Assembly (NCBI GenBank): GCA_947631045.1
Contig: CANRJV010000010.1
Location: forward strand, 1 to 36,895
Length of the DNA: 36,895 bases
Reading direction: 5' to 3'
DNA from: an uncultured Bacilli bacterium
GTDB lineage: Bacteria; Bacillota_I; Bacilli_A; RF39; UBA660
In this document: piece by piece, positions 13,777 to 28,375 of the stretch
How positions within the stretch are numbered: the first letter of the stretch is position 1
Layout: each line of letters opens with the position of its first letter
Notes under the pieces: model-generated
Databases searched by the model: none
What the model was told of the DNA's origin: nothing
What the model saw: the letters and a program-made list of their open reading frames with translations, nothing else
Position numbers and translations under genes: made by a program

Positions 13777-13829
13777 TTACAATAATCGTTGTAATGTTTC
13801 TTTACTTTTAGCATATGTTACCTTATAAT
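13777..13829 (+). promoter_or_regulatory. Promoter with upstream inverted repeat
   Basis: TTTACT (13801-13806), 17-base spacer, TATAAT (13824-13829). Just upstream lies TTACAA-N6-TTGTAA (13777-13794), an inverted repeat that fits a dimeric regulator site. Confidence 0.6.
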
Positions 13830-13865
13830 AAGGATATAAATAAATTTAGAAAGGGAGTTAATATT

Positions 13866-15299
13866 ATGAAAAAATTATCAGTTAAGACTGCTACGGGGTT
13901 GCTTTTGGTTTCTAGTATAGCTGCTGCTGGAGCTTATGTGGTAGTAGCTAATGCTAATAAAGTAAGTGATGCATATTCTAATGAGGTAAATAATGATGGT
14001 ACTAATTTTGCCGAAAATGCCATTGTAGAAGAAGTTGTCACTCCTGTAGTAGAAGATACAGAGGCAATTGTAACAGCAGAAGCGGAAGTAGAAAAAGCGG
14101 AAGCTAAAGTGGAAAGTGCTAATGAAGAAGTTAAAAAAGCCGAAGCTAAAGTAGAAGAGGCTAGTCAAGATGTTAAAAAGGCTGAGAGTAGCAAAAAAGC
14201 GGCTTTAAAAGAAGTTCAAACGGCTAGCGAAGCTATCAAAAAGGCTAGTGATGCAAAAAAGGCTGCTTTAGCGGAAGTAAAATCAGCTAAAACAACTGAA
14301 GAAAAGAAAGCCGCTGAAGCCAAAGTAAAAGCAGCTGAAAAAGAGGAAAAAGAAGCTGCTGCTGCTAAGAAAGAAGCTGATGCTAAAGCCAAAAAAGCCG
14401 AGGAAGAAGCCAAAAAAGCTCAAGAAGCTAAAAAAGCAGCCGAGGAAGCAGCTAAGAAAGCTGAAGAAGAAAAGAAAGCGGCTGAAGCTCAAAAAAAGGC
14501 TGCTGAAGAAGCGGCTAAAAAAGTAAAAGAAGCCGAAGAAAAAAGAATAGCTGATGAAAAGAAGAAGGCCGAAGAAGCCGCAAAGAAAGCTGAAGAAGAT
14601 GCTAAATTCCAAAGGATGTTAGAACTTGCTAAAAAAGGTGAAGAAAGAGATAAAGCCGAATATGAAGCTGCTGTAAAAGTCAAAGAAGACGAGGCTGCTA
14701 AAAAGAAAGCTGAAAGATTAGCACAAGAACAAGCTGAAAAAGAAGCTGCTGAAAAAGAGGCTCAAGAAAGAGCAGCAAGAGAATCAACGGCAAGTTTAGA
14801 AGCTAAATTAAAAGAAGAAGAAAATAAAGCTGCAAATCAAAAGACGCAAGAATCTACTTCAAAACCAGAAGTATATAAGATATCTGATCAATTAAGAGCC
14901 CAAATTGTTTCAACAAATAGGACAATTACATCAAAACCAGAAGTTACGACTAAAGAATTTAGTGTTGACAATTATTTAGATAAAGAAACTCTTGAAAAAT
15001 GGAGTGGTTCGGCTCTTGGAAGTGGAATTATTTGGTTTGCTCACTTTGAATGTAATACTGCTCATTGTGTCGGATTTAATGGTGGTAAGAATTTTGTTAA
15101 TGAATCTCGTCGTGGTGATGTCGATAAAATTACAGTAACAGCACCAGAGCCTAGAGAAGGTTATAAATTTGTTGGTTGGCGAGAGATTGCACCAACTGTA
15201 TATGAACGGGATTATTTAGATGAAAAAAGTGGTAAAAACATTCACGTAACAATTTCAGTTCCATCATATGAAGCTTTATACGAAACAATCGCCGGATAA
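13866..15299 (+). CDS. Secreted/surface Ala-Lys-Glu coiled-coil protein
   Basis: 477 residues from ATG 13866, chosen because AAAGGGAG precedes it and because the in-frame ATG at 13815 overlaps the promoter -10. The N-terminus is a signal peptide or anchor (MKKLSVKTATGLLLVSSIAA, then VVVANA). Residues about 60-325 are an almost pure Ala/Lys/Glu heptad-like coiled coil with repeated KKAEE and AEAKV units, recalling TolA or pneumococcal surface-protein stalks. The C-terminal 110 residues are globular, with a Cys pair (FECNTAHCVGF) and a segment EGYKFVGW ... YEALYE that resembles one beta-grasp Flg_new/InlB-type repeat. No LPXTG or other wall anchor is visible. It is a single-gene unit ending at a terminator. 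Confidence 0.8.
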   Translation: MKKLSVKTATGLLLVSSIAAAGAYVVVANANKVSDAYSNEVNNDGTNFAENAIVEEVVTPVVEDTEAIVTAEAEVEKAEAKVESANEEVKKAEAKVEEASQDVKKAESSKKAALKEVQTASEAIKKASDAKKAALAEVKSAKTTEEKKAAEAKVKAAEKEEKEAAAAKKEADAKAKKAEEEAKKAQEAKKAAEEAAKKAEEEKKAAEAQKKAAEEAAKKVKEAEEKRIADEKKKAEEAAKKAEEDAKFQRMLELAKKGEERDKAEYEAAVKVKEDEAAKKKAERLAQEQAEKEAAEKEAQERAARESTASLEAKLKEEENKAANQKTQESTSKPEVYKISDQLRAQIVSTNRTITSKPEVTTKEFSVDNYLDKETLEKWSGSALGSGIIWFAHFECNTAHCVGFNGGKNFVNESRRGDVDKITVTAPEPREGYKFVGWREIAPTVYERDYLDEKSGKNIHVTISVPSYEALYETIAG

Positions 15300-20387: not shown

Positions 20388-20494
20388 ACTGTAACGATTT
20401 ATAGGTAAATAAAGATTAAATTTGTAAACAAGTGCCATAAGCACTTTATTTGTTTTTGAAACAAAACTATAATTATTATGTACAATAATACGAC

Positions 20495-20526
20495 ATATGG
20501 TATTAAATCTTAATTTAATACCATAT
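20495..20526 (+). promoter_or_regulatory. Long 5' UTR hairpin before surface-protein copy A
   Basis: Perfect 14-bp stem ATATGGTATTAAAT/ATTTAATACCATAT with a CTTA loop, ending a few bases before the AAGGAG of the gene. Paralogue copy B keeps only the ACCATATTA part of the 3' arm and cannot form it. Confidence 0.6.
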
Positions 20527-20545
20527 TAATAATAAGGAGTAACAT

Positions 20546-22200
20546 ATGATAGAAGAAAGTAATAAAGATAAAAGTAAAAAGAAAATAATAATTGGAAGTA
20601 TCATAGCCATAGTATTTTTATTAATTTTAGTTACAGGGGCAACTTATGCTTTCTTTAGTCTAGATGTAATAAATAGTCAAACTGAAACTAATGTAAATGT
20701 AACTACTGGTAAATTAAATAATGTAGCAATAAAAGGAACAGATAATAATACTTTCATATTAAAGTAAGTTCTGAAGATATGAAACAAGAATTAAAAGGAA
20801 CAAGTTATTATGCTACAACAGATGATAATAAAGATTATTTAAAAGAAAACGAAGAACACAATATAAATATTGCCTATTTAGAAGCAGAAGGGGATATGAC
20901 TCCTACTAATATATGTACAGCCAAATTAAAAGTAAATATTAGTGGAGAATTAAAAGATGCTTTACAAGATGGTGATACATTACTCCATATAGAAGGAGGA
21001 AGAAGTAAACATGATATAGATTTAAGTTTATTGTTGGATGAATATCCAATAGAGTTTGTTGTAGATGAAAGTGGTACTCAAGAAATAAAAGCTTATTTAA
21101 AGGTAACAAATAGAGATGCTGATCAAACATACATAGCCGGTAAGACATTGAGTGTAACATTAACAATAGAAGGATTAACATGCAAAGTACAAAATAAAGA
21201 TGATGCAGTCGAAAAGATATTAGCCAATGAAGACCAATTAGAAGCTCCAGAAGATGTATCCTTAAGAGGAGATGTACTTCGTAGGTTTCAAGGGACAGTA
21301 ACAAAAAGAGAAGATGGAACGATAGAAGATGATATAAATAATTATATCTGTTTTGGAGCAGATAATAAGGAAACATGTACAGAAGATACAGACCATTATA
21401 TGTACCGAATAATCGGAGTAGCTCTAAATAATGATGCAACAACCAATACCAAATATGGTCAGCTTAAGTTAATCAAAAAGGAAGCATTAAATGATAGAAT
21501 ACAATGGTATAAAGATTATAATACCGATATAGATTGGTTTCAAAGTGATTTATATAAGGCAATAACAGAAGAAAAATATTTAGAAGATGTTAATTATGTT
21601 CCAACAGAATGGGAAAGTAAAATAGTTGACCATACTTGGTGGACAGGAGATATACTATATACTAATAATTCTGGATGGCAAGATGGTAATGCAGTATATA
21701 AAATAGAAACAGGAAAAATTCCATCAGAATTTAATGTATTGAATATGAATAGTGGCCAGTATTCAACCTATATTGAAAATGGGATAGATGATGACCCATA
21801 TTATCATAAAACCATAAATTATGATGTGGTGCGCCAAAAATGGATAACGCATCAAAGTGCAAAAGTAGGATTAATGAATCTAAGCGATTATTATTTAGCT
21901 TATGGAGGAAAAGGAGAAACATGTGCCGGAAATAAAGATTGTATAAATACATGGATCCATTTAAGCAAAAATGACTTACCAACTTCAGATGCTCATGAAT
22001 GGCTAATGTCTCGTTATGGTTTATTTCTTGAGTGGGGGCGGTATCAAGCCAGCGACATAAGGGAAGATGGTGTACCTTGGTTAGGACAGTTTTCCTACCA
22101 ATTTTTTGCACGTCCTGTAATATATTTGACATCAGGTTTGGAATTATCAGGTTCAGGAGCAGTAGATGACCCATATATAATTCAAGGTGTTGAAGAATAA
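20546..22200 (+). pseudogene. 'GATYAFF' surface protein, copy A, broken by one-base deletion
   Basis: Two pieces (20546-20767 and a second frame to 22200) join into one protein of about 550 residues when aligned with the intact paralogue at 26783. Where copy B has ACTTTGCATATT, copy A has ACTTTCATATT: one G is lost after 20754, turning LHIKVSSEDM into FILK-stop. The N-terminus has a Lys-rich segment, one membrane helix and TGATYAFFS, like SipW-type/camelysin signal regions. A two-part extracellular domain rich in Asp/Lys follows, then NYICFGAD ... DTDHYMYRIIGV and a C-terminus ending YLTSGLELSGSG ... DDPYII, resembling DUF6273-like exported proteins. The function is unknown; surface exposure is inferred. 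Confidence 0.75.
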
Positions 22201-22213
22201 TTAAATTATACTT

Positions 22214-22246
22214 AACAGTGAAATATTTAAATTTTGCTGTTTTTTC
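22214..22246 (+). terminator. Terminator after copy A
   Basis: AACAG/CTGTT outer stem with a GAAAT/ATTTT inner stem, followed by a run of T. Confidence 0.7.
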
Positions 22247-22326
22247 TTTAATTATATAATGCAAATTTTATTATAAATTGTCGAAAAAATAGAAGTTTTG
22301 ACAACGTTTGTCGAAAGTGTTGAAAT

Positions 22327-22372
22327 GGATAAAAATATCCGTAAAATAGAGACCTCGAAAAGAGGTGAAAAT
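22327..22372 (+). promoter_or_regulatory. Tandem leader hairpins, the second occluding the Shine-Dalgarno
   Basis: GGATA/TATCC (22327-22340) and then ACCTC-GAAAA-GAGGT (22352-22366). The 3' arm of the second is the ribosome binding site AGAGGTG (22361-22367), so the start at 22373 is masked when the hairpin forms. Upstream are TTGACA and two TTGTCGAAA copies. Confidence 0.6.
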
Positions 22373-23212
22373 ATGAACACAACGAAAGAAAAGACTAAAT
22401 ATTTTACTTTAAAGTATGATCAAGTATTTAAATCTATAATAGTAGATAATAATGATTATACCGTTATGAATAATATCTTGTCGGATATCTTAGATAGAGA
22501 AGTAAAAGTGAAAAGATATTATAATACGGAATTAAAAACAAAAAATAAAAAAACTAAAGAAAATAGATTAGATGTTGTCTTAGAAACAACCGATGGAACA
22601 TTTATTAATTTAGAACTGAATAGTAATTATGATAAATCAATAAAGATAAGAAATTATATCTATTATTCTGGGATGTGTTCAGAATTATCACCAAAAGGTA
22701 AGAAGAAAAGAATACCCAAAGAAGTAATCCAAATCAATTTAAATTTTAATGAAGGGAATAATAAACCTTTAAAAGAAGAATATTACTTAAGAAATAAAGA
22801 AGGAGAAATATTAATAGAAAACTTTCGAATAATAAATGTAAATATTGAAAGATATAAAGATACGTGGTATGATAAAAATATCGAAGGAGATAAGAGATAT
22901 ATCTACTTAACAATGCTTGGAACAAATGAGAAAGAGCTAAAGAGATTAGCTAAAAGTGAAGAAAAAATAAGAGAGGTGAGTGAAAAGATGATCAGATTTA
23001 ATGAAGACGGAACAATAACTAATGTATTAACACCAGAAGAAGATGAAGAATTTGTAATGGAATTAAGAAGGCAAGAAGCTTATGATAATGGTGCAAAAGA
23101 TACTATGAGAAGTAATGCTATTTCCATGATAAAAGAAAAAATACCATTAAAAATAGTTTCTAAAGTTACAAAAATAAGTATAAAAGAACTAAAGAAATTA
23201 GTAATTAAATAA
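22373..23212 (+). CDS. PD-(D/E)XK nuclease family transposase-like protein (Rpn/TIGR01784-like)
   Basis: 279 residues from ATG 22373, which follows AGAGGTG; the longer open frame from 22298 would start upstream of the leader hairpins. The N-terminus KYDQVFKSII and the core NRLDVVLETTDGTFINLELN (Asp, then Glu-x-Asn in the place of ExK) followed by IRNYIYYSGMCSEL match the Rpn/PDDEXK_2 family of recombination-promoting nucleases. The C-terminus has a helical tail with AYDNGAKDT and IKEKIPLKIVSKVTKIS, the usual small helix-turn-helix-like end of this family. Family members occur in many copies and spread between genomes. It lies between the two surface-protein paralogues. Confidence 0.88.
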   Translation: MNTTKEKTKYFTLKYDQVFKSIIVDNNDYTVMNNILSDILDREVKVKRYYNTELKTKNKKTKENRLDVVLETTDGTFINLELNSNYDKSIKIRNYIYYSGMCSELSPKGKKKRIPKEVIQINLNFNEGNNKPLKEEYYLRNKEGEILIENFRIINVNIERYKDTWYDKNIEGDKRYIYLTMLGTNEKELKRLAKSEEKIREVSEKMIRFNEDGTITNVLTPEEDEEFVMELRRQEAYDNGAKDTMRSNAISMIKEKIPLKIVSKVTKISIKELKKLVIK

Positions 23213-23293
23213 GAAGCTTAAAAGATTAAAATTATTTTAATTAATCATAGTTTAAAAGTTTTATTTATGGTATATTATTACTAGGTGGTAAAA

Positions 23294-23953
23294 GTGGTAG
23301 TAACAATTATTTTAATTCTTCTTTGTTTATTCATTATTTTTCTTATTTTTAAATCATTTAAAAAGAATGAATTTAATATGTTTGGTTATAATTTAGGTAA
23401 ATATATACTTGGGCCTATTTTTAAATTATATTATCCTTATAAAGTAGTAAATAAACCCGTTGTTCCGGAAGAAGGACCTGTTATTTTTTGTTGTAATCAT
23501 ATTCATATTATGGATCAATTTTTAACTGTTTTAGAAGTTAAAAGATCTATTCATTATATGGCAAAAAATGAATATTTTTTAAATAGAAAGGTTAAATGGT
23601 TTTTTGCAGGTACTGGTTGTATTCCGGTAAATAGAGAAATTCATGATGAGTATGCCAAAGAAAAAGCAATGGAAGTTTTAAATAAAGGTTTAGCTTTAGG
23701 AATATTTCCGGAAGGAACTAGAAATAAAACGAAAAAAGTTTTATTACCTTTTAAATATGGAGCAGTATCTTTAGCGAGTAAGAGTAAGGCAACGATTATT
23801 CCTGTGGGTATTTCGGGAACTTATAAATTTCGAACTAAAAATTTAAAGGTTAATTTTGGTACTCCTTATAAAATTGAAAGTTCTGATTTAGCAAAGGAAA
23901 ACCAAAAATTGTATGATACAATTTTAAACCTAATAAAAGAGGCGAAGAAATGA
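23294..23953 (+). CDS. plsC: 1-acyl-sn-glycerol-3-phosphate acyltransferase (PlsC-like)
   Basis: 219 residues from GTG 23294; the in-frame GTG at 23285 overlaps the AGGTGG Shine-Dalgarno. The enzyme adds the second acyl chain to lysophosphatidic acid at the membrane. There is an N-terminal membrane helix (about 1-18). The catalytic HX4D motif is NHIHIMD near residue 68-74. The acceptor-binding block is FPEGTRN near 138-144. IIPVGISGTYKF is the fourth conserved block. Its TGA overlaps the murF ATG by four bases, so lipid and wall synthesis genes are coupled here. Confidence 0.92.
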   Translation: MVVTIILILLCLFIIFLIFKSFKKNEFNMFGYNLGKYILGPIFKLYYPYKVVNKPVVPEEGPVIFCCNHIHIMDQFLTVLEVKRSIHYMAKNEYFLNRKVKWFFAGTGCIPVNREIHDEYAKEKAMEVLNKGLALGIFPEGTRNKTKKVLLPFKYGAVSLASKSKATIIPVGISGTYKFRTKNLKVNFGTPYKIESSDLAKENQKLYDTILNLIKEAKK

Positions 23954-25344
23954 AAAATATTTATGTTAAAGATATTTTAAGGTTAACTAATAGTAAATTA
24001 ATTAAAGGTACGGAAGATACTATTTTAAATAGTTTTTCTACTGATACTAGAACTATCAAAGAAAATGAAATTTATTTAGCCATTAAAGGTCAAAATTTTG
24101 ATGGTAATTTATTCTATGAAGAAGCTTTACAAAAAGGTTGTAGTGGTTGTATTTTAGATAAAAATGCTAAAATAGATATGGAAGCTTTAAATAAATATCA
24201 CCATGCTTTTATTATTTTAGTTAATGATTCTTTAAAATGTTTACAAGAAATAGCTAAATATAAAAGAAGTTTATATAATATTCCGGTCATAGGGATAACT
24301 GGCAGTGTGGGTAAAACTAGTACAAAAGATATAATTGCAAATGTTTTATCACAAAAATATAAAGTTTTAAAAACGGAAGGTAATTTAAATAATCATATCG
24401 GGCTGCCTTTAACTATTTTAAAATTACAAGATCATGAAGCTTTAGTGGTAGAAATGGGGATGAATAATTTAGGAGAAATTAGTCTTCTTTCAAAAATAGC
24501 CAAACCAAATGTTGCTCTTATTACTAATATTGGGACCGCTCATATTGGTATTTTAGGTTCTAGAGAAAATATTTTAAAGGCCAAATTAGAAATATTAGAA
24601 GGAATGGAAGAAGGAACTTTAATTATTAATAATGATAATGATTTATTACATGAAGTAAAGAATAAAATAAATCCCAAAATAAAAGTTCTTACTTATAGCA
24701 TAAAAAATGAAAGTGATTATAAAGCTACTAATATAAGTCTTAATGATAAAGGAAGCACTTTTGAAGTTTTAATAAATAAAGAAGTTCATTCTTTCCAAGT
24801 AAATGTTCCAGGTGAGGCTTTTGTTTTAAATAGTTTAGCAGCTTTAATTGTGGGCCTTCATTTTAATATTTCTCTGGAATGTATTAAAGAAGGAATTTTA
24901 AATTTTACTTTATCAAGTAAGAGAATGGAAATTGAAAAAATAAAAAATATAACTTTAATTAAAGATTTTTATAATGCCAATTTAGATTCGATGAAAAGCG
25001 CCATTAATTATTTAGGAAGTTTAAAAGAGACCAGAAAAATTGCTATTTTAGGAGATATGTTAGAATTAGGTTCATTTAGTAAAGAATTACATAGAGAAGT
25101 TGGTAAATGTGTTTATGATAATAAAATAGATCTTTTAATTACTATTGGGGTAGAAGCCAAAAATATTGCTGATGAGTGTTTAAAACTAGGATTTAATAAA
25201 AATAATATTTTAACATATGATTCTATTAGAGATGCTTATCCCCATATTAAAAATCTTTTTAAAGAAAAAGATACTATTCTTTTTAAAGCATCTAATGGAA
25301 TGAATTTTCAAGAAATTTATTCTCTAGTAAAGGGTGACTTATAA
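23950..25344 (+). CDS. murF: UDP-N-acetylmuramoyl-tripeptide--D-alanyl-D-alanine ligase
   Basis: 464 residues, a Mur ligase that adds the D-Ala-D-Ala dipeptide made by Ddl to the cytoplasmic wall precursor. The N-terminal uridine-binding domain includes FSTDTRTI and YLAIKGQNFDGN. The P-loop is GITGSVGKTSTKD near residues 115-127. The central domain has NNHIGLPLTILKL and VVEMGMNNLGEI. The C-terminal domain carries IKDFYNANLDSMKSAI and ILGDMLELG, both typical of MurF. It overlaps plsC by four bases and is followed by ddl after five bases, a sensible functional pairing. Confidence 0.96.
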   Translation: MKNIYVKDILRLTNSKLIKGTEDTILNSFSTDTRTIKENEIYLAIKGQNFDGNLFYEEALQKGCSGCILDKNAKIDMEALNKYHHAFIILVNDSLKCLQEIAKYKRSLYNIPVIGITGSVGKTSTKDIIANVLSQKYKVLKTEGNLNNHIGLPLTILKLQDHEALVVEMGMNNLGEISLLSKIAKPNVALITNIGTAHIGILGSRENILKAKLEILEGMEEGTLIINNDNDLLHEVKNKINPKIKVLTYSIKNESDYKATNISLNDKGSTFEVLINKEVHSFQVNVPGEAFVLNSLAALIVGLHFNISLECIKEGILNFTLSSKRMEIEKIKNITLIKDFYNANLDSMKSAINYLGSLKETRKIAILGDMLELGSFSKELHREVGKCVYDNKIDLLITIGVEAKNIADECLKLGFNKNNILTYDSIRDAYPHIKNLFKEKDTILFKASNGMNFQEIYSLVKGDL

Positions 25345-25349
25345 AATAA

Positions 25350-26393
25350 ATGAAATTAGCCATTATTTTTGGTGGTAAAAGTACAGAACATGAAGTATCT
25401 GTGGCTTCAGCAACGAGTATAATTTCTGCTCTAGATAAAGAAAAATATGAAATATTTCCTATTTATATAAGTAAAGATGGGAAGGTTTTCGAATATACTA
25501 AAAAGATTAAAGAAATAAAACCTTTAAAGGTAGGAGAAGAAATAACAGAGTTAAAACCTATCTCAAACCTTTTTAATTATTTGGAAAAAATAGATGTGGT
25601 TTTTCCGGTTTTGCATGGGAAAAATGGCGAAGATGGAATAGTTCAAGGGATGCTCACTTTATTAAATAAAAAATATGTAGGATGTCATACTTTAGCATCT
25701 TCTTTATGTATGGATAAAGAAAAAACCAAATTGATTTTAAAAAGTTTAGGAATAAAAGTAGCTAAATGGTTAACTTTAAAAAAAAATTATATCGATTATC
25801 TTTATTATGATCAAGAATATAATTGTTATAATTTAGATGATAAAAATTTAAAAGAATACATCAAAAAAGAGATCGGTTATCCTTTATTTGTTAAACCATC
25901 TAATTCTGGTTCATCTGTTGGTGTAAGTAAAGTTACTAAGGAAGATGAGTTAATAGATAAAATTAAAAAAGCTTTCTTATATGACGATAAAGTATTAATT
26001 GAAGAAGCAATTGTGGGAAGAGAATTAGAGTGTGCCATTTTAGGAAATGAAGAATTAATTGTAAGTCCTATAGGAGAAATTATCACAAATAACTATTATT
26101 CTTATGATGCGAAGTATAAAGATAAAGCTTCTCAAACGATAATCCCTGATGATATTCCGATAAACATTCAAAAAGAAATTAGAGATATAGCCAAAAGAGC
26201 CTACAAAGGGTGTGATTGTAAAGGATTATCTCGAATTGATTTCTTTTTAGAAGATAAAACGGGTAAAATAATTTTAAATGAAATAAATACCATACCTGGT
26301 TTTACTAGTATTAGTATGTATCCTAAACTAATGGAAAGGTATGGCTTTGATTATTCAACATTATTAGATAAATTAATTGAACTTGCTTTATGA
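25350..26393 (+). CDS. ddl: D-alanine--D-alanine ligase
   Basis: 347 residues, an ATP-grasp ligase that makes D-Ala-D-Ala for MurF. The N-terminal substrate motif is EHEVSVASATS near 13-23, with LHGKNGEDG near 89-97 in the centre. The ATP-binding loop is KPSNSGSSVGVSK near 181-193, and the metal-binding strand and C-terminal loop NEINTIPGFTS lie near 310-320. The length is normal. It is the last gene of the plsC-murF-ddl unit, with a weak Shine-Dalgarno and presumably translational coupling to murF. It ends at a hairpin that lies inside the 3' end of the convergent xre gene. Confidence 0.96.
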   Translation: MKLAIIFGGKSTEHEVSVASATSIISALDKEKYEIFPIYISKDGKVFEYTKKIKEIKPLKVGEEITELKPISNLFNYLEKIDVVFPVLHGKNGEDGIVQGMLTLLNKKYVGCHTLASSLCMDKEKTKLILKSLGIKVAKWLTLKKNYIDYLYYDQEYNCYNLDDKNLKEYIKKEIGYPLFVKPSNSGSSVGVSKVTKEDELIDKIKKAFLYDDKVLIEEAIVGRELECAILGNEELIVSPIGEIITNNYYSYDAKYKDKASQTIIPDDIPINIQKEIRDIAKRAYKGCDCKGLSRIDFFLEDKTGKIILNEINTIPGFTSISMYPKLMERYGFDYSTLLDKLIELAL

Positions 26394-26417
26394 GTTTCTA
26401 TTTAAAAGAAACTTTTT
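26393..26417 (+). terminator. Terminator of plsC-murF-ddl
   Basis: Seven-base stem AGTTTCT/AGAAACT with an ATTTAAA loop followed by five T. It overlaps the last codons of the convergent minus-strand xre gene. Confidence 0.75.
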
Positions 26418-26634
26418 CTTTTTCTATTTCTTCTGTTTCTTTAAGGCCAAGAATGTAATCTGCCGAAACTCCTAAATATTTACAAATTTTGGGAAGATAG
26501 GTAACAGGCATAACATTAACCCCTTTTTCGTAGCGGGCATATTGTTGTTGTTTGATACCAAGATAATCAGCAATTTCTTTTTGGGTAATATTTTTGCAAT
26601 CTCTTACCCATTGAATTTTTTCATTAAAATACAT
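26398..26634 (-). CDS. XRE-family helix-turn-helix regulator
   Basis: 78 residues. A Cro/CI-type helix-turn-helix covers about 5-63, with ITQKEIADYLGIKQQQYARYEKGV as the recognition region and LGVSADYILGL closing the domain. The last 15 residues are acidic/basic and short, so there is no separate sensor domain. It starts on the minus strand with an AGGTGG Shine-Dalgarno seven bases before the ATG. It is divergent from surface-protein copy B and may control the shared upstream region; this is inference from position. It is convergent with ddl. Confidence 0.92.
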   Translation of the reverse strand: MYFNEKIQWVRDCKNITQKEIADYLGIKQQQYARYEKGVNVMPVTYLPKICKYLGVSADYILGLKETEEIEKEKVSFK

Positions 26635-26680
26635 TTATACCACCTAGATATCATATACCATTTTTTACAACTGATATGTT

Positions 26681-26715
26681 GACTATTGAACTTATGTGTT
26701 GTAAAATTTAATTGA
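26681..26715 (+). promoter_or_regulatory. Putative promoter of surface-protein copy B
   Basis: TTGACT, 17-base spacer, TAAAAT in the xre-copy B divergent gap (positions approximate), about 75 bases upstream of the ATG at 26783. AAGGAG precedes the start. Confidence 0.45.
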
Positions 26716-26782
26716 TAATAGTAAATTTATAATATGTTTAAACTTTGAAAAATTAGACCATATTAGTAATAAGGAGTAACAT

Positions 26783-28360
26783 ATGTTAGAAGAAAATAAT
26801 AAAGATAAAAGTAAAAAGAAAATAATAATTGGAAGTATAATAGCCATAGTATTTTTATTAGTCTTAATTACAGGAGCAACATATGCCTTCTTTAGTATAA
26901 ATGTAAGTAATGGTAGTACAAGTACAAATATAAATGTCAATATGGGCAAATTAAATAATATTGCTATCAAAGGAACAGAAAATAATACTTTGCATATTAA
27001 AGTAAGTTCTGAAGATATGAAGTTAGCTAGTAAAGGAACAAGTTATTATGCTACAACAGATACAAGCAAAAATTACTTAAAAGAAAGTGAAGACCATGTT
27101 ATAAATATTGCCAACTTACTAGTAGAAGGAGAAATGACTCCCACTAATATATGTACAGCTAAATTAAAAGTCGAAATGAATGGAGAATTAAAAGATTTTT
27201 TACAAGATGGTGATACATTACTCCATATAGAAGGCGGAAGAAGTAAACATGATATAGATTTGAGTTTATTATTGGATGAATATCCCATAGAATTTGTTGT
27301 AGACGAAAGTGGTACACAAGAAATAAATGCCTCTTTAAAACTTATAAATAGAGATGCTGATCAAACATACATCGCCGGAAAGACCTTAAGTGTAACATTA
27401 ACAATAGAAGGATTAGCATGCAAAGTGCAAAATAAAGATGATGCAGTAGAGAAAATATTAGCAACATCAGAGAAATATTTAGAAAAAGCCGAAGATGTAT
27501 CCTTAAGAGGAGATGTACTTCGAAGATTTCAAGGTCAAGTGGAAAAAGATGAACAAGGTAATATAACAAATGATATAAATAATTATATCTGTTTTGGAAC
27601 AGATAATTCTGAAACATGTAAGAATGATACAGACCATTACATGTACAGAATAATCGGAGTAGCCCTAAATAATGATACAACAACTAATACCAAATATGGA
27701 CAATTAAAATTAATTAAAAAGGAAGCTCTAAATACTTCTCAAATATGGGGTATTGAGGATCAAACATGGGAAACAAGTACACTTCAAATTGGATTAAATG
27801 ATAAATTGTTTTTAAAAAACAATTCCGAATATCCATATATGCAAAGTGATGATACAGAAACGGAATGGACAAAAATAATAACATCACATAATTGGAAATA
27901 TGGATATGTATTAGAAGATGAGATAGGATTTGGCATAAGAAATGAAACCAATAAAATAACAGGGATAGAAGCATATAAAAAGGAAAAAAAGCTATTAACG
28001 AATACATTTTTAAATAAAAAAACAGGATTAATATATGCCAGTGATTATTGGTTATCAGGAGGGGCAAATCTTAGATGCAGAGATAGAAGTTATTCTAGTG
28101 AATGTGAAAAAAGTTGGATGTATATAAGTAATAATGATAGTGCCGAATTAAGTACAACAGAAAGTAATCCTACGAACGCGTATGAATGGACAATGTTACA
28201 ATTTGATAGGAGCGAAGCATGGCGGGTTGACTCAGTTGGGATTATGGCTCACAATGAAATTTCTATTGCATCGGCAATTCGTCCCGTAATATATTTAAAT
28301 TCAGGTTTGAAGTTATCAGGTTCAGGAGCAATAGATGACCCATATATTATTAATAATTGA
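26783..28360 (+). CDS. 'GATYAFF' surface protein, copy B (intact)
   Basis: 525 residues and the intact partner of the broken copy A. The layout is a Lys-rich cytoplasmic start (KDKSKKK), one membrane helix, then TGATYAFFS as in SipW-type/camelysin proteins, and a long exported region. Residues about 30-310 are close to copy A. The region about 315-500 differs strongly (copy B has many Thr/Glu/Trp motifs such as WKYGYVLEDE), and the last 30 residues (RPVIYLNSGLKLSGSG, DDPYII) match again. This conserved-variable-conserved plan resembles DUF6273-like exported proteins of gut Bacillota. The function is unknown, probably at the cell surface. It ends at a perfect palindromic terminator. Confidence 0.75.
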   Translation: MLEENNKDKSKKKIIIGSIIAIVFLLVLITGATYAFFSINVSNGSTSTNINVNMGKLNNIAIKGTENNTLHIKVSSEDMKLASKGTSYYATTDTSKNYLKESEDHVINIANLLVEGEMTPTNICTAKLKVEMNGELKDFLQDGDTLLHIEGGRSKHDIDLSLLLDEYPIEFVVDESGTQEINASLKLINRDADQTYIAGKTLSVTLTIEGLACKVQNKDDAVEKILATSEKYLEKAEDVSLRGDVLRRFQGQVEKDEQGNITNDINNYICFGTDNSETCKNDTDHYMYRIIGVALNNDTTTNTKYGQLKLIKKEALNTSQIWGIEDQTWETSTLQIGLNDKLFLKNNSEYPYMQSDDTETEWTKIITSHNWKYGYVLEDEIGFGIRNETNKITGIEAYKKEKKLLTNTFLNKKTGLIYASDYWLSGGANLRCRDRSYSSECEKSWMYISNNDSAELSTTESNPTNAYEWTMLQFDRSEAWRVDSVGIMAHNEISIASAIRPVIYLNSGLKLSGSGAIDDPYIINN

Positions 28361-28375
28361 TTTTAAGAAAATTTT

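Follow-up and report, generated by a model that had tools for sequence, protein, structure and literature searches.

The 36,895-nucleotide (nt) stretch analyzed here, called the window below, makes up contig C10 of a draft genome (G000; 1.31 Mb in 81 contigs, 93% complete) of an uncultured Bacilli bacterium; C-numbers denote contigs of this genome, G-numbers genomes and L-numbers the locus stretches that were analyzed. It carries two related genes, copies A and B, on either side of a block of housekeeping genes. These copies belong to a family of which other members appear to be diversified by a diversity-generating retroelement (DGR), a system with template repeats (TRs) and variable regions (VRs). 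The original prediction for this DNA had described direct repeats of about 950 bases at high identity around PD-(D/E)XK, plsC, murF and ddl genes, with the two loci diverging sharply and rejoining near their ends, and these features were all borne out. The copy A head used as a query matched copy B at 85% DNA identity over 970 nt (1083 bits), with 801 of the 947 aligned head positions being the same. The direct repeats begin at 20520 and 26757 (D4, 86%) and continue through D2 (86%) and D3 (82%), the latter ending at 21492 and 27733. In 75-column windows identity was 73-96% up to approximately these positions and 35-61% from 21493/27734 onward, before returning to 73% in the window containing the end block, a 72-nt repeat at 89% identity (D5, 22111-22182 and 28280-28351). 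Profile matches confirmed the four intervening genes, with ddl matched once and PDDEXK_2 six times in the genome.

Copy B has an intact frame, whereas copy A has no intact frame from start to stop: the leader that opens at ATG 20547 closes after about 74 codons, and the body (473 aa) is open in a frame other than the leader's. The break lies near 20754 and had been missed in the original prediction. Since dN/dS between the A and B heads is 0.24, the frame break in copy A is either recent or an error.

Table 1. Features of the window around copies A and B (strand "." where none applies)
Feature	Position	Strand	Basis
Copy A, frame-broken family member	20547..22200	+	Leader ~74 codons; body 20779-22200
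Copy A head, B-like	20547..21470	+	203/229 informative sites from 20779 on, vs C27
Middle module of copy A, resembling paralogs C27, C16 and C3	21471..22047	+	Trees and informative sites
Copy A segment equivalent to DGR VR, untemplated	22048..22110	+	21/36 non-adenine mismatches
Copy A conserved end, B-like	22111..22200	+	20/21 informative sites vs C27
Copy B, intact family member, 525 aa	26783..28360	+	Open frame
Copy B tracts identical to C1:64340 (256 nt, 26904-27159) and C12:4964 (214 nt, 26868-27081)	26868..27159	+	
Copy B segment equivalent to DGR VR, untemplated	28217..28279	+	18/43 non-adenine mismatches
Copy B conserved end block	28280..28351	+	Repeat D5
Segment with copy A, without counterpart in syntenic G007 locus	20389..22273	+	Left match ends 20388, right starts 22274
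Segment with XRE gene and copy B, without counterpart between ddl and NAGPA in G007	26390..28362	+	Flank alignment, gene order
XRE/Cro-type regulator, 78 aa, divergent from copy B	26401..26634	-	HTH_3 47.2 bits, cut-off 23
Candidate operator upstream of copy A: perfect dyad of 14 nt with a 4-nt loop	20495..20526	.	Dyad search
Imperfect dyad (83%) over promoter-like site	26663..26707	.	Dyad search
PD-(D/E)XK (Rpn/PDDEXK_2) gene unit	22266..23216	+	PF12784
plsC-type acyltransferase	23285..23953	+	PF01553 87.8 bits; TIGR00530 94.2, under its 102.95 cut-off
murF	23950..25344	+	TIGR01143 405.6, cut-off 288.6
ddl	25350..26393	+	NF002528 402.5, cut-off 262

A search of the genome for further copies, which had been proposed as a check, returned 44 match places with copy B as the query, so that the family extends well beyond the two window copies. 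By motif we gathered 24 family genes with 25 lectin-like domains, a set in which some genes are cut by contig ends or by the fetched stretch and in which head-only relatives without an RPV-type end are uncounted; long open frames were present in most of them. From N- to C-terminus, the proteins consist of a hydrophobic anchor with a head, then a lectin-like domain and a VR-equivalent segment, and they close with a conserved end. The hydrophobic N-terminal segment suggests a location at the cell surface, and the domain probably adopts a C-type lectin fold with a likely role in ligand binding. At the thresholds used, no Pfam, NCBIfam or PHROGs family was found for the lectin-like domain of copy B, the N-terminal part giving weak hits only; a PDB profile search returned no relative (a single irrelevant hit, E 0.62), and copy B alone found none in the genome-contig collection. 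Family matches were present in all 37 genomes of the genus that were searched, the window genome included, and in none of 23 other genomes of the class. One member, of 792 aa (C2:11122 onward, L070), has tandem lectin-like domains, the first templated and the second intermediate in the test described below, and an IS200-type transposase (Y1_Tnp, 144.4 bits) lies directly upstream of another family gene (L028:159-578, on C30).

The genome contains a DGR, comprising a reverse transcriptase (RT) with a DGR-type motif, an Avd-like protein and non-coding TRs. The only RVT_1 match, on C21, scored 66.6 bits, over its cut-off, and the protein has the motifs PIGNMTSQ and YMDD; the GN..SQ motif marks DGR reverse transcriptases. 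The order of the locus (L069) is a two-gene family member (910-1617 and 1633-2862), T1, PD-(D/E)XK, T2, PD-(D/E)XK, T3, T4, a MutS domain I (MutS-I) gene, the Avd-like gene and the RT, with the four TRs and the two PD-(D/E)XK genes among them occupying L069:2955-6974. The MutS-I protein (129 aa) matched its domain at 26.4 bits (cut-off 20.6), and the Avd-like protein reached 60.2 bits against the PHROG 'Avd protein of DGR', although its scores with Pfam (28.7, cut-off 40) and NCBIfam (38.7, cut-off 80) fell short. Among 81 DGR loci, that is, 80 loci of RT relatives and the window genome's own, a MutS-I relative was found in 79 and an Avd relative in 81. A MutS-I protein named MSL has been described as a DGR accessory (PMC10053308). 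A separate, full MutS, distinct from the DGR MutS-I protein, is also encoded (C2:1994-2548; MutS_V domain 286.9 bits, 858-aa open frame).

A common conserved stretch follows each of the four TRs. Three VRs end at the 3′ side in CGTCCAGTC, and the corresponding TR end is CGTCCAGCC, a difference that recalls the mismatch-bearing part of the initiation of mutagenic homing (IMH) element of phage BPP-1 as described in PMC3240598. The PD-(D/E)XK unit directly behind copy A is 96% identical to L069:5257-6195, which lies between two of the TRs; a general DGR accessory role for these proteins was unsupported, since they occur in 14 of the 81 DGR loci, chiefly those of the nearest relatives. RT relatives with at least 55% identity over most of their length were found in 15 of 38 genus genomes, some with stops, and any match in 23 of 38. 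The closest RTs belong to uncultured Bacilli metagenome-assembled genomes, of which the window genome is presumably another; among the best 12 loci, 11 came from isolates named Lapin, a name that presumably refers to rabbit, and one from goat rectum. A recent phage origin of the RT was likewise unsupported, as the best 80 IMG/VR relatives were at most 35% identical. In a more distant relative, whose RT is 55% identical, an Asn-rich motif located eight TR-like segments behind the RT (L161:11221-13038, CATBQD010000004.1), and a neighboring 1085-aa protein with Ig-like domains fits one of them (9/20 adenine and 1/43 non-adenine positions mismatched).

We compared each lectin-like domain with its best TR, using alignment scores blind to which base changes; the counts exclude the TRs and an 'RP' match in L037 that is due to chance. 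In 11 of the 25 domains the 3′-terminal VR was adenine-biased: these templated domains had at most 5 non-adenine mismatches (three had none) and 5-15 adenine mismatches, adenine accounting for 62-100% of the mismatches. Two domains were intermediate (non-adenine 8/40 and 11/40), and the remaining 12, with at least 15 non-adenine mismatches, were untemplated. Both window copies fell into this last set, showing no adenine-biased VR against the genome's own TRs, and the TRs of a relative, G009, did not fit them either (non-adenine mismatches 24/41 for A and 17/41 for B). In a control of 400 random in-frame segments of family genes, the non-adenine mismatch fraction had a minimum of 0.371, a 5% point of 0.463 and a median of 0.583, and the copy A segment lies at this median. 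The 21-nt VR 3′ end divided the domains along the same line, with 0-2 mismatches in 13 domains and 4-9 in 12, although the consensus was built from the templated set, so that only the 4-9 figure counts as a test. Neither window copy retains the conserved IMH-like end, A having 9 and B 6 mismatches to the consensus.

Beyond this genome, 13 of 22 domains in G009 had at most 6 non-adenine mismatches to its two TRs, including that of L111, a templated, full-length protein of the window type that is 44% identical to copy B. Of eight family genes beside other DGRs, picked from 30 listed, five had 0-3 non-adenine mismatches and three had 6-8. The templated members here, in G009 and beside other DGRs thus identify the family as a DGR target family. 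Copies A and B belong to it but are not DGR targets now, whether or not they once were: they would lie beyond the reach of the DGR because their VR-equivalent segments and VR 3′ ends no longer match a TR.

Copy A is in addition a mosaic. At sites informative between B and C27, copy A agreed with B over C27 by 203:26 in the head and 20:1 at the end, whereas the ratio was 41:142 in the middle, and the pattern was unchanged with C16 or C3 in place of C27; because such sites are linked and not independent, we place weight on the pattern and not on Fisher values. In the tail tree, A groups with C27 and C16 (98/96) and B with C12:4964 (93/86) and C40 (85/83). Constraining the four window-type genes to one clade lowers the log-likelihood by 97.7 units, on a tree with long branches, while the head tree resolves little (1 of 18 branches starred, bootstrap unsettled). 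The heads of copy B, C1:64340 and C12:4964, which are 88-93% identical overall, have identical tracts of 178-256 nt in common, and when the polymorphic sites were shuffled 5000 times, no shuffle gave runs of agreement as long as theirs. Copy A is near-identical to no other copy in head or middle, and a simple assembly chimera therefore does not account for its mosaic, though one might in part account for the identical tracts of the other three. The sequences thus support segment exchange within the family, probably through homologous recombination. The original proposal of a variable family that exchanges cassettes therefore stood in so far as the family is multi-copy and segment exchange is visible, and is corrected in that a DGR appears to diversify part of the family and not A or B.

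Relatives of the window genome, compared at one genome per species, point to how the copies arrived. In G007, whose ddl is 81% identical, the order is 571-aa ligase, PD-(D/E)XK, plsC, murF, ddl, NAGPA, 393 and GT, without A or B. Since the plsC-murF-ddl block thus occurs without the copies, A and B are best read as insertions. Five of ten relatives (G007, G029, G032, G026 and G019) have ddl and NAGPA together, about 110-130 nt apart and without a copy; NAGPA was not nearby in the other five. On the copy A side, the ligase directly adjoins plsC in G021, G010 and G015, with gaps of 1.8 kb in G022 and 0.7 kb in G025, and in G019 the stretch ahead of plsC matches the family weakly, at 22% identity. 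The site of C1:64340 is similar, gap and pgk being together without a copy in all three relatives that show both (six have gap). The simplest reading is that A and B were gained in the window lineage. Neither terminal repeats nor a target duplication could be established for the extra segments, at about 20389-22273 and 26390-28362.

The XRE gene beside copy B belongs to a wider arrangement. A divergent HTH_3 match within 800 nt was found at 12 of 20 family loci of the window genome, one of them just under the Pfam cut-off, compared with an expectation of about 1.5% each; this count is without four of the 24 genes (C36, C59, C38 and C1b). Among the other eight loci, C67 has a divergent HTH_26 gene, C2 an Arc-type gene, C27 a sub-threshold HTH_3 match and C19 a same-strand regulator. 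Ten of the regulator sequences were 23-61% identical (median 33%). At DGR loci of other genomes, divergent helix-turn-helix (HTH) genes accompany 7 of 15 family genes vs 7 of 483 other open reading frames. From its position, the XRE protein probably represses copy B. Promoter-like sites were rejected as evidence, being at chance level in the region (60 found vs 57.2 expected).

We consider it probable, at roughly 0.75, that A and B are retired members of a family that is diversified elsewhere by the genome's DGR, that they were inserted singly and that heads and modules have been exchanged among the copies. The DGR with its four TRs would rewrite the 11 templated sister domains elsewhere in the genome, while A and B, which would descend from templated ancestors, would have entered singly between housekeeping genes. 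Heads would swap short tracts through recombination between copies, copy A may have taken its middle module from another subfamily in the pattern expected of a double crossover or gene conversion, and copy B would be governed by the divergent XRE gene that it adjoins. Several observations weigh against this reading. The copy B fraction of 0.419 lies below the 5% point of the control (though above its minimum), so that a remote link to a TR remains. L110, the best full-length match to B in G009, is untemplated (19/44 and 22/41 in its two domains), and templated ancestry is thus unproved for copy B's branch. A fifth TR may be missing from the incomplete draft. With respect to regulation, the G009 loci were unenriched in divergent HTH genes (0/3, control 1/6; few loci), other genus loci were weakly enriched (3/11, control 0/15), and copy A has no HTH gene upstream.

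A wider version, which we regard as improbable, is a two-engine repertoire in which the DGR, with several self-contained TR units, would rewrite the binding tips of dispersed members and recombination would shuffle heads and modules, with a private divergent XRE switch at each locus choosing the variant produced and the Rpn-like PD-(D/E)XK nuclease breaking DNA for dispersal or retrohoming. The nuclease idea stems from the location of these genes between the TRs and directly behind copy A.

Classical cassette antigenic variation is exemplified by vlsE, pilE/pilS and mycoplasma vlhA. Applied here, it would make copy A a silent donor and B, or another intact copy, the expression copy that takes up donor segments. 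The conserved-variable-conserved plan and the multi-copy family with mosaic members and identical tracts resemble such systems, and copy A is frame-broken yet was constrained until recently, as its head dN/dS indicates. However, we found no silent-cassette archive feeding one expression site in the window genome. Most of the 24 genes are themselves open over a long frame and 12 of 20 loci carry a separate divergent HTH gene, an arrangement that does not resemble one expression site with an archive, and an RT appears to diversify part of the family. This explanation therefore appears unlikely.

Less likely again, A and B could be live targets of a TR missing from the assembly. The 93% completeness of the genome leaves room for one, the VR-equivalent segment of B weakly resembles the TRs, and window-type proteins in G009 are templated. 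Nevertheless, targets of one TR would share its non-adenine letters, and A, B, C1:64340 and C12:4964 have no common scaffold in this segment, pairs being 31-50% identical in most windows; furthermore, the VR 3′ end is degraded in both A and B.

An assembly artefact, with chimeric or homogenized repeats in a short-read draft, is very unlikely. Several family members are indeed located at contig ends, the identical tracts of B, C1:64340 and C12:4964 may be partly homogenized and A may owe its broken frame to an error; however, the A head is 15% off B and most middle windows are about 15-40% off C27, C16 and C3, so A was not stitched together from them. Least likely of all are plain duplicates with a fast-evolving ligand domain and no segment exchange, which would look alike in two copies as a conserved head and a diverged domain, but which fit neither the middle of A being nearer C27 and C16 while its head and end are nearer B, nor the cost of uniting the four window-type tails.

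Several parts of the picture have precedents: the literature already contains DGR targets at remote sites, DGRs with more than one TR and paralogs that stay stable (PMC7517822, PMC6642488 and PMC3521204). The DGR variable proteins with remote paralogs of cyanobacteria (PMC7517822) and Treponema denticola (PMC4891356) have an RT, Avd, a TR and 3′-terminal VRs, with targets dispersed over the genome, an IS200-type transposase near a target, and targets with excessive mutations or no TR, all of which resemble the present case. Here, unlike in those descriptions, a single locus holds four TRs, the 1.3-Mb genome has 11 or more templated domains, many loci carry divergent XRE genes and the window copies are untemplated. 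Diversified targets coexist with stable, undiversified paralogs in the multi-VR DGRs of PMC3521204; that paper calls them conserved 'ancestor' genes, whereas the untemplated copies here are mosaics and apparently recent insertions. Multiple VRs were counted in 271 of 948 DGRs, 216 of these with one TR, in PMC6642488, which includes DGRs with more than one TR and several targets; the same conserved stretch after each TR and the PD-(D/E)XK genes between TRs set the present locus apart from that account. In the open-licence literature we found no report that deals with the DGRs of this group, links divergent XRE genes to DGR targets or combines a DGR with module exchange, which is a weak absence; PMC12875486, PMC10907252 and PMC4159848 contributed no decisive point.

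These findings would mean that a single protein family, in an uncultured genus of gut Bacilli, is varied both by DGR mutagenesis and by segment exchange, and templated and untemplated sisters within one genome may indicate how targets leave DGR control. The divergent XRE genes beside many members also make locus-by-locus expression control a testable idea. Elsewhere in the window, 13815-15299 encodes a 494-aa protein with weak family hits only and a long repetitive Ala/Lys/Glu-rich stretch, inside which 14 of the 16 members of the repeat family D1 begin.

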